Assembly (NCBI GenBank): GCA_018883245.1
Contig: VEQL01000019.1
Location: 1 to 51,047, forward strand
Length of the DNA stretch: 51,047 nucleotides
DNA from: Chthoniobacterales bacterium
GTDB lineage: Bacteria; Verrucomicrobiota; Verrucomicrobiia; Chthoniobacterales; JACTMZ01
Direction of reading: 5' to 3'
A program made the translations under genes and the position numbers. This document shows, one piece after another, positions 17,536 to 20,811 of this stretch. The notes under the pieces are model-generated. The model made no database searches. It was not told where the DNA came from and saw nothing but the letters and a program-made list of their open reading frames with translations. Numbering within the stretch: position 1 is the first letter of the stretch; each line of letters starts with the position of its first letter.

Positions 17536-18649
17536 TTTTGTCTTTGTCCTTCTGCTCGCCTTTGCTGCGCGGGCCGAGTTCCGCGGGGCGTGGATTTCCG
17601 CGGTTCACAATCTCGACTGGCCGTCCGAGCAGGGGTTGCCGCCGGAAGCGCAGAAGGCCGAGTTGGTGCGCTTGCTCGACTCGGCCAAGTCTCTCGGGCT
17701 CACCGACGTGTTTTTCCAGGTGCGCCCCGAGGGCGACGCGCTCTACAAATCCTCGCTCGAGCCTTGGAGCCGCTTTCTCACCGGGACGCAGGGCCGGGAT
17801 CCCGGCTACGACCCCCTGGCTTTTTGCATCAGCGAAGCCTCCCGGCGCGGGATCCGCGTTCATGCATGGATCAATCCTTATCGCGCCTCGGTGAAGGCCG
17901 GCGCGCCTCTCGCTTCGAATCACATGGCTCGCCGTTTCGGTCCCTACGCTCACCGCGTGGGCTCTGTGGTTTGCATGGATCCCGGTTCGCAGGAGGTCCA
18001 GGACCACGTGGTCAAAGTGGTTTCCGACATCGCGAGCCGCTACCCGGTGGCGGGAATCCACTTCGACGATTATTTTTATCCTTATCCGTCGGTCGGAAAA
18101 TTGCCGGACGCCAAAACTTACGAGCGCTACCGGGCCGCGGGGGGCAAACTCGATATCGGCGACTGGCGTCGCGACAACGTCAACAAGCTCATCGAGCGAT
18201 CCTGCCGCGCGGCCAAGCAAGCGCGACCGGGGGTCCTTTTCGGCGTGAGTCCTTTCGGGATTTACACCAAAGGCCAGCCTTCGACGGTGAAAGCCGGCCT
18301 TGACCAACTCAACGAAATCTACGCCGATCCCGTGCTTTGGATGCGCAACGGGTGGGTCGATTACCTCGCGCCGCAGCTTTATTGGAAGGACAAGTCCGAC
18401 CAGAGTTTCGCCGAATTGCTCAAATGGTGGCGCAGTCCCTCCGCCAACCCTCGGGGCATCCCGATTTACCCCGGTATCGCGGCTTACCGCATGAGCGAGC
18501 AAGGCTGGCCCCCGCAAGAAATCGTGCGGCAGGTCGCGCTCTCGCGCACGGTCGGCAGCGGACCCTCCGGGCACGTGTTCTTCCGCCTCGCCACCATGGC
18601 GAACAACGTGAAGGGCGTTTCCTCGCTGTTGAAAAAAGCCGGCTACTGA
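17504..18649 (+). CDS. Secreted glycosyl hydrolase-like protein, GHL10 (DUF187/YngK) family
   Basis: A 381-residue exported protein. The signal peptide is SWLSFVFVLLLAFAARA with cleavage near Ala-Arg-Ala. The mature part begins EFRGAWISAVHNLDWPSEQGL, the signature start of the GHL10 family. It continues through FFQVRPEGDALYKSSLEPWS, RVHAWINPYRAS, GIHFDDYFYPYP (putative acidic catalytic residues) and DYLAPQLYWKD. The family is a TIM barrel thought to act on cell-wall or extracellular glycans, but the substrate is unproven. The start overlaps the end of argB, though function is unrelated. It converges on the squalene synthase gene with a 7-nt overlap of the 3' ends. Confidence 0.87.
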   Translation: MRASALKSWLSFVFVLLLAFAARAEFRGAWISAVHNLDWPSEQGLPPEAQKAELVRLLDSAKSLGLTDVFFQVRPEGDALYKSSLEPWSRFLTGTQGRDPGYDPLAFCISEASRRGIRVHAWINPYRASVKAGAPLASNHMARRFGPYAHRVGSVVCMDPGSQEVQDHVVKVVSDIASRYPVAGIHFDDYFYPYPSVGKLPDAKTYERYRAAGGKLDIGDWRRDNVNKLIERSCRAAKQARPGVLFGVSPFGIYTKGQPSTVKAGLDQLNEIYADPVLWMRNGWVDYLAPQLYWKDKSDQSFAELLKWWRSPSANPRGIPIYPGIAAYRMSEQGWPPQEIVRQVALSRTVGSGPSGHVFFRLATMANNVKGVSSLLKKAGY

Positions 18650-19497
18650 CGGCCGAGCATGACTTCGGCCAGTGCGGTGATTTTTTCCGCGGACGTCAGG
18701 CGGTAGCGCTGTTCGGTCACGCGCAACCCGTCGACCCGCATTTTGCGCAGCAGCTTCGCGTAAACCGCGGCCATCATCCGGGCCGGACGCAAAGCCCTGC
18801 GATCCGCCGCCGGCAACTGGTCCGATGCAATGGTGAAAAGTTCCGCCGCCCCGGCGGCGAAAGTTTCGAGATAGTCGCGTCGCTTTCCATCGTCGCGCAT
18901 GAAACTCCCGTCATCGAGACCCGACGCCGTCAACTCATCCAGCGGATAGTAAATCCGGCCGCGTTTCAGGTCCGACGCCGTGTCGCGCAGGATGTTCGTG
19001 TATTGCAGCGCGCGGCCCAAGGTCTCCGCGTAGTCCCTGCAGCGTGCGCTGTCGGCCCCGAAGATCGGAAGGCAAAGCAGGCCGACGACGCCGGCAACCC
19101 GGTGGCAGTAAAGATCCAAGTCTGCCCGCGCGTTCATGCGAACGGGGGAATGGAGATCCGTTGCGATGCCGTCGAGTAGTTCGACAAACAGGCCAGGCGC
19201 GAGTTTGCGTCGCTGCATCATCGACCGCAAATCCTCCGGCGCTCCATGCAGCCCGGGGTCGAGGAAAGCCGCGCGCCATTCCTCCAGCGCTTCGCGGCGC
19301 GTGTTGAGGTCGTGGTCGCCGTGGTCCGCGATGTCATCCGCCGCCCGGCAGAAAGCGTAAAGCGTCTCCAGATCGCTTCTGCGCTCCGGCGGCAGCAGTC
19401 GGAAAGCCGGGGCGAAACTCGATCCGCTCGCGCGGACGACGCAGCCGCCGTCGAGCCGTGCAGGTGGCGACAGCGGGTTCACGCCGCGACGGCGCAA
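18643..19497 (-). CDS. Squalene/phytoene synthase family protein
   Basis: Head-to-head prenyl transferase family, condensing two C15 or C20 diphosphates to squalene-, hydroxysqualene- or phytoene-type products. The 284-residue protein has both Mg-binding motifs: LYAFCRAADDIAD (Asp54, Asp55, Asp58) and YTNILRDTASDLKRGRIYYP (Asp172, Asp176). The N-terminal SGSSFAPAFRLLPPERR and the YCHRVAGVVG segment are also typical. Which product it makes cannot be told from one gene; HpnC/HpnD-type hopanoid/squalene enzymes are candidates. No other isoprenoid gene is nearby. It overlaps the end of the ABC-type gene by 19 nt and probably shares its transcript. Confidence 0.88.
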   Translation of the reverse strand: MRRRGVNPLSPPARLDGGCVVRASGSSFAPAFRLLPPERRSDLETLYAFCRAADDIADHGDHDLNTRREALEEWRAAFLDPGLHGAPEDLRSMMQRRKLAPGLFVELLDGIATDLHSPVRMNARADLDLYCHRVAGVVGLLCLPIFGADSARCRDYAETLGRALQYTNILRDTASDLKRGRIYYPLDELTASGLDDGSFMRDDGKRRDYLETFAAGAAELFTIASDQLPAADRRALRPARMMAAVYAKLLRKMRVDGLRVTEQRYRLTSAEKITALAEVMLGRQ

Positions 19498-20153
19498 ATG
19501 TGGCCGTCAGCCATCGACAAGACCCGGTCCGCCGCACCCGTGGCCGGACCGTCCCCACGCGAACCCCACACCACGGTCAGCCCGAACTCGTCCACCGCAA
19601 GTCGCGCGAGAGGGACGATCAGTTCCTCCGCCGCCGGCGACTCGGCGATGAGCACGCGCGGACGGTGGGCGATGGCGCGGGCGAAGGCGCCGACCGCCTG
19701 GCGCTCGGGGCTCAATCGCGACACGGGCAAATCAGCCTCGCTCTCCATCCCGCAAAATTGCAGCGCGAGCAATGTCCGCTCGGCCTGCAGCACTTCGTCG
19801 CCGACGCCCGCCTTGATCACCGGGAAAGCGATATTCTCCAGCAGGCTCAGCGAGGGCAACAATGCGCACGCGGGGAAAAGGAACCCGAAATTCCTCAGCC
19901 GCAAGCTGTCGCGCTCTTCCGCGCCGAGGGACGTCGTGTCGATGTTGCCGAGCCATACATTCCCCTCGTCCGGTTGCTCGAGCAATCCGAGCAGATGGAG
20001 CAAAAGATTTTTGCCGCAGCCTTCGTCACCGCGGATGGCATGGAATTTCCCGGCGGCGAATTCCGCCGTGATGCCGCGCACCTGCGAGGCTCCGGCGCGC
20101 CAGAGCGGGCGCCGGCACCGGAGATTTCGGCAGCGGAGCATCGGGGCGTTCAT
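19479..20153 (-). CDS. Degenerate ABC-type ATP-binding protein (LolD/FtsE-like, likely inactive)
   Basis: A 224-residue protein with the overall layout of a short ABC ATPase, but nearly every catalytic motif is altered. Walker A reads GDEGCGKN (42-49), keeping Lys48 but lacking Ser/Thr. The Q-loop Gln is Pro94 (GFLFP). The signature is LSPER instead of LSGGQ. Walker B ends AESP, so Asp and catalytic Glu are Glu171 and Ser172. The switch His is replaced (VVWGSRG). The frame is intact with GC codon use like its neighbours, so it is probably an expressed pseudo-ATPase. The start is MNAPMLRCRN. No ABC permease is in the window. It is divergent from pgsA. Confidence 0.8.
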   Translation of the reverse strand: MNAPMLRCRNLRCRRPLWRAGASQVRGITAEFAAGKFHAIRGDEGCGKNLLLHLLGLLEQPDEGNVWLGNIDTTSLGAEERDSLRLRNFGFLFPACALLPSLSLLENIAFPVIKAGVGDEVLQAERTLLALQFCGMESEADLPVSRLSPERQAVGAFARAIAHRPRVLIAESPAAEELIVPLARLAVDEFGLTVVWGSRGDGPATGAADRVLSMADGHICAVAA

Positions 20154-20241: not shown

Positions 20242-20811
20242 GTGACATTGGCCAACCAAATCACGCTGGTGCGCATCCTGCTCATCCCGGTCTTCGTGGT
20301 GTTCGCCGTCTATTATTCGGCGAGCCGCCGCGACGGGGCTCCGGTGGAATGGCTGCACTGGGCTGCCGTCGCTGTGTTCGTCGTTGCGGCCGCGAGCGAC
20401 GGCGTGGACGGCTGGATCGCGCGGCGCTTCAACCAGCGCAGCGCCCTGGGCGTGATTCTCGACCCGATTGCCGACAAGGGCCTGCTCCTCACGGCCATTA
20501 TCACGCTGAGTCTTTACCCGTGGGCGGCCGGACTTCCGATCTGGTTTCCCATCCTCGTCATCGCGCGTGATGCGGTCATTCTTGTTGGCTGCGGTGTCCT
20601 AAAGTTTCTCAATGGCGAGGTCGAGGTGCGCCCCAGCGCCTTGGGGAAAATCGCCACCGCTTTGCAAATGACCGCCGTCGCGTGGGTCCTGCTGCAGATT
20701 CCCCACGAGATGTGGGTCGTCTGGGCCGCGGGTATTTTCACCCTGGCCAGCGGCATCGGTTATGTCTGGCGCGGCTTGGCCTCTCTGGGCGGCGCGGCGC
20801 GCGCGACATGA
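20242..20811 (+). CDS. pgsA: CDP-diacylglycerol--glycerol-3-phosphate 3-phosphatidyltransferase
   Basis: Integral membrane enzyme making phosphatidylglycerol phosphate. It carries the complete CDP-alcohol phosphotransferase motif, from SDGVDGWIARR to LGVILDPIADK (D-x2-DG-x2-AR-x8-G-x3-D-x3-D). From GTG 20242 (VTLANQITLVRILLIPVFV) the protein is 189 residues, the usual length and N-terminus for PgsA. ATG 20167 would add 25 residues that look unrelated. Several hydrophobic segments follow. The stop overlaps the der start by ATGA, so both are translated from one message. Confidence 0.88.
   Translation: MTLANQITLVRILLIPVFVVFAVYYSASRRDGAPVEWLHWAAVAVFVVAAASDGVDGWIARRFNQRSALGVILDPIADKGLLLTAIITLSLYPWAAGLPIWFPILVIARDAVILVGCGVLKFLNGEVEVRPSALGKIATALQMTAVAWVLLQIPHEMWVVWAAGIFTLASGIGYVWRGLASLGGAARAT

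Follow-up and report, generated by a model that had tools for sequence, protein, structure and literature searches.

At the locus considered here, which lies in a 51,047-nucleotide window (the whole stretch of DNA analysed) from a member of the Chthoniobacterales, a gene for a pseudo-ABC ATPase, designated pABC, directly precedes a squalene/phytoene synthase gene on the minus strand. The pABC reading frame (19479-20153, minus strand) is open, with a LolD/MacB-type fold and all of its catalytic motifs changed; its 224 amino acids are encoded by 19482-20153, starting from a conserved ATG at 20153, and a longer start at 20285 shows no conservation in relatives. The stop codon of pABC and the start of the synthase share 4 bp (GTGA, 19479-19482). 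The synthase gene (18643-19482, minus strand; PF00494, HpnD-like) encodes 279 amino acids from the overlapping GTG and retains its active-site Asp residues; with the stop/start overlap found in most of the family, the start in the window is placed at this GTG (19480-19482) rather than at an upstream TTG. Divergent from pABC is a pgsA-like gene for a CDP-alcohol phosphatidyltransferase (20242-20811, plus strand). In several relatives a gene for a membrane protein, designated c4, sits between pgsA and pABC; here it is absent from that position.

The catalytic changes that a sequence-only reading of the window had described are all found at the residue level. The degenerate Walker A motif, GDEGCGKN (residues 42-49; 20007-20030, minus strand), keeps its lysine as Lys48 and has Asn49 in place of Ser/Thr. 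Further along the same strand, the Q-loop glutamine is replaced by Pro94, within a conserved stretch of residues 86-113 (19815-19898); motif scoring places a degenerate signature, LSPERQ instead of the canonical LSGGQ/E, at 19698-19715; Walker B reads LIAESP (19635-19652), with Glu171-Ser172 replacing Asp-Glu; and the switch position (19557-19559) holds Arg199 instead of His. Altogether, two of eight scored key residues (Lys48 and Ser148) are retained in the window protein. It passes the PF00005 cut-off (E 8e-13), and its fold is predicted by AF2 to be intact (pLDDT 96.3, pTM 0.92), the model being closest to MacB and LolD-type chains in Foldseek (TM 0.83-0.89) and the best PDB profile matches being to LolD. 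The match to the NCBIfam LolD model is weak (3e-22) and falls far under the cut-off, at 79.2 against 307.75 bits, a miss that says little by itself because the order's own canonical LolDs also score below 307.75.

Relatives of pABC occur across the order. The gene is present in nine sister genomes, free of internal stops and with 60-71% identity, and in other families of Chthoniobacterales there are more distant relatives with 35-47% identity; the contig of one relative, JACSRU010000113.1, belongs to a Chthoniobacterales MAG. A profile search of 156 Chthoniobacterales genomes separated a pABC group scoring at least about 180 bits (55 genomes) from canonical ATPases scoring at most about 158 bits, and this set, once one named MAG and genomes that fell short of the completeness threshold are included, comprises 58 distinct members. 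Among 387 sampled genomes of the phylum, no clear member was seen outside Chthoniobacterales; two matches from another order of the same class, at 164-169 bits, fall in the score gap. The 58 members form a single clade (support 100/100) apart from canonical LolD-type ATPases, and the clade also holds in a tree of 25 representatives to which the order's own LolDs were added.

Alignment of these homologues shows that the degenerate state is common to all 58. The Walker B Asp and the switch His are each found in none of them, the Q-loop Gln in one, and the Walker A Thr in three; the Walker A Lys is present in 42 of 59 scored rows (one row being a duplicate), and no single member exceeds four of the eight key residues. 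By comparison, all eight are present in every one of 25 canonical rows (24 of them distinct, 13 from the same order and 11 from elsewhere), a contrast that chance does not account for. The losses vary by lineage (G053, for example, has no recognisable Walker A), as would be expected if ATP use had ceased to matter early. The non-enzymatic task suggested in the sequence-only reading is favoured by this family-wide loss of catalytic motifs; the suggestion stays conditional, however, as Walker A is complete in three members, and nucleotide binding may persist in some.

Simple decay of the gene is ruled out by the absence of frameshifts and by low omega values. Two findings that would refute the sequence-only reading had been named beforehand, namely orthologues with canonical motifs and frequent frameshifts in relatives. 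The profile search of 156 genomes and motif scoring found no canonical orthologue elsewhere in the order, and the frames of relatives are intact, with omega at 0.04-0.23 across 18 pairs of genomes drawn from several lineages and similar values for the neighbouring synthase. Selection on pABC is purifying, and on these sequence comparisons pABC is an order-wide retained family rather than a decaying gene.

What has been retained can be located within the protein. Nucleotide-contact positions carry a mean information of 1.75 bits in the pABC family versus 4.02 in canonical relatives, and residues 86-113 carry 3.03 bits versus 2.66, this block ranking 5th of 221 circular shifts; Phe93, Glu106 and Asn107 within it are invariant. 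In FtsE, the Q-loop (86-96) and residues 101-115 form a cavity for the coupling helix of FtsX, with F87 at the cavity bottom, and it is this groove to which residues 86-113 of pABC correspond (PMC7468199). When FtsE Q88 is aligned to Pro94, F87 falls at the invariant Phe93. Likewise, LolD binds the coupling helices of LolC/E (PMC8333309). Conservation of the stretch could partly come from folding instead of docking.

The tie to the squalene/phytoene synthase, also raised in the sequence-only reading, is strong at the gene level. The synthase is the next gene after pABC in 57 of the 58 members, and 52 of these 57 pairs share a 4-bp stop/start overlap (ATGA or GTGA); the sole member without a following synthase, G071, has a TTGA 4-bp overlap that was left out of the count. 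Both Asp-rich motifs are conserved in 70 synthase sequences, save for one sequence in which Glu replaces the second Asp of the first motif, and the window synthase scores 232 bits against the NCBIfam HpnD model, below its cut-off of 278.6. On the synthase tree, the presence of pABC needs at least four label changes, a pattern that would most simply reflect one old presence and four losses, and the losses in some families imply that the synthase is able to work without pABC there. Tree distances of pABC and synthase correlate no more than the LolD phylogeny would give (partial r 0.11, p 0.22). The pABC-synthase pair is also kept in genomes that have neither c4 nor hopene cyclase, as in the window genus (G000-G010), in which no squalene-hopene cyclase was detected. 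The synthase of this genus stands on a long branch (1.14), and its product there may differ. The window genome yielded two homologues of squalene/phytoene synthase.

The best explanation, put tentatively, is that pABC has become a catalytically dead adaptor: it would dock on a partner in the membrane and hold or regulate the synthase to which its gene is coupled. From the family-level features we infer co-translation, docking and an effect on the synthase: the overlap would couple translation, giving joint production of the two proteins; pABC would use its coupling-helix groove to attach to a membrane protein, which may be the polytopic c4 where it is present and another partner in the window genus; and it would thereby hold or allosterically tune the synthase at the membrane, where the lipid product would be passed on. 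ATP hydrolysis would not be needed for such a role. The adaptor role is favoured because three features are constant, namely the inactive ATP site, the conserved stretch for docking and the coupling to the synthase, with c4 and hopene cyclase being variable. Since the tree distances lend no support to direct contact, confidence in this mechanism is held slightly short of an even chance.

Other explanations are less well supported than the adaptor role, and the strongest of them involves c4. This gene, which in many relatives is the one just upstream of pABC, encodes a polytopic protein of about 380 amino acids with about 6-9 predicted transmembrane segments (examples from the order are L039:6837-7985, L042:6870-8018 and L050:8599-9801). 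Together with the conserved docking stretch, these features would suit a pABC that is, or formerly was, a non-hydrolysing subunit in a complex with c4, whether as a dead transporter, a static lipid channel or a scaffold, with another membrane partner in the window genus. The distribution of the two genes points the other way. Present in 79 of the 156 Chthoniobacterales genomes and in none outside the order among the genomes sampled, c4 shows no association with pABC (25/55 against 54/101); families f9 and f4 have c4 but not pABC, and the converse is seen in f1 and in part of f7 and f6. In the window genus, c4 is absent from all 10 genomes and has been lost. Nor could c4 be matched to any known family or solved structure, with nothing significant among Pfam, NCBIfam and PDB profiles, and a single-sequence AF2 model reaches a pLDDT of 51, too low to be usable. 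A complex of this sort is considered rather unlikely, and c4 would itself represent a family of membrane proteins, so far undescribed, encoded next to squalene synthase. The raw association between c4 and hopene cyclase is strong (Fisher p 5e-18), but the phylogenetically independent pairs are too few and lend it no support.

Permeases were sought as well. The possibility that pABC is the genome's sole LolD is ruled out by a separate canonical LolD (L222), which is on a different contig from a LolC/E-like permease gene (G000:C9, L214:5749-7032, minus strand). In the window genome and in two sister genomes this permease gene stands apart from any ATPase gene, and the permease could be served by a heterodimer in which pABC is the degenerate half and a canonical ATPase, such as LolD, is the other; degenerate sites are indeed known in heterodimeric ABC exporters. 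A degenerate partner, however, usually leaves one composite site working, and in pABC the losses affect both faces of the nucleotide sandwich, signature included. Furthermore, the separate LolD can serve the permease by itself, and it is the synthase, rather than a permease, that pABC is linked with: no FtsX/MacB-type permease is co-located with pABC, the FtsX matches of the window genome being on other contigs, and no conserved ABC partner gene lies beside it in the loci examined. Such a heterodimer, which could still form between products of unlinked genes, appears improbable. Least probable of all is a weakly constrained relic kept mainly as an overlapping frame that drives synthase translation, which the nearly universal 4-bp overlap and several apparent losses would suit, but against which stand low omega across the protein, the specific conservation of a stretch within it and the long survival of the gene free of frameshifts.

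The pABC protein differs from each of the systems it resembles. It has in common with LolD/MacB/FtsE-type ABC ATPases the fold and the conserved coupling-helix region, whereas its motifs are all changed, it forms its own clade, and it lacks an adjacent FtsX/LolC-type permease. Like the degenerate half of heterodimeric ABC exporters, it is a retained ABC domain with changed catalytic residues; degenerate ABC sites, however, are usually found inside working transporters that have a second active site, whereas pABC is free-standing, has all sites changed, and is coupled at the gene level to a lipid synthase. The neighbouring synthase, in turn, shares PF00494 and intact Asp-rich motifs with HpnD/squalene synthases, and differs in scoring below the HpnD cut-off, in its coupling to a pseudo-ATPase gene, and in the lack of a hopene cyclase in the window genus. 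In the open-access literature searched, no report of a comparable free-standing inactive ABC family was found, nor anything relevant on hopanoids or squalene in Chthoniobacterales or on inactive ABC ATPases.

The broader proposition, that an ABC ATPase without ATP use has been turned into a dedicated adaptor of a squalene-type terpene synthase at the membrane, as a Chthoniobacterales-wide invention accompanied by the new c4 family, is somewhat more speculative than the mechanism itself. If true, it would represent the conversion of an ABC motor into a protein adaptor and offer a way into the question of how bacteria position squalene-type synthases at the membrane. In addition, c4 stands out as a putative, undescribed membrane protein family beside squalene synthesis in Verrucomicrobiota. 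In one relative (G020), two c4 fragments matching profile positions 11-43 and 319-382, with the middle lost, were found at L047:7694-7972, followed downstream by an intact pABC and synthase.
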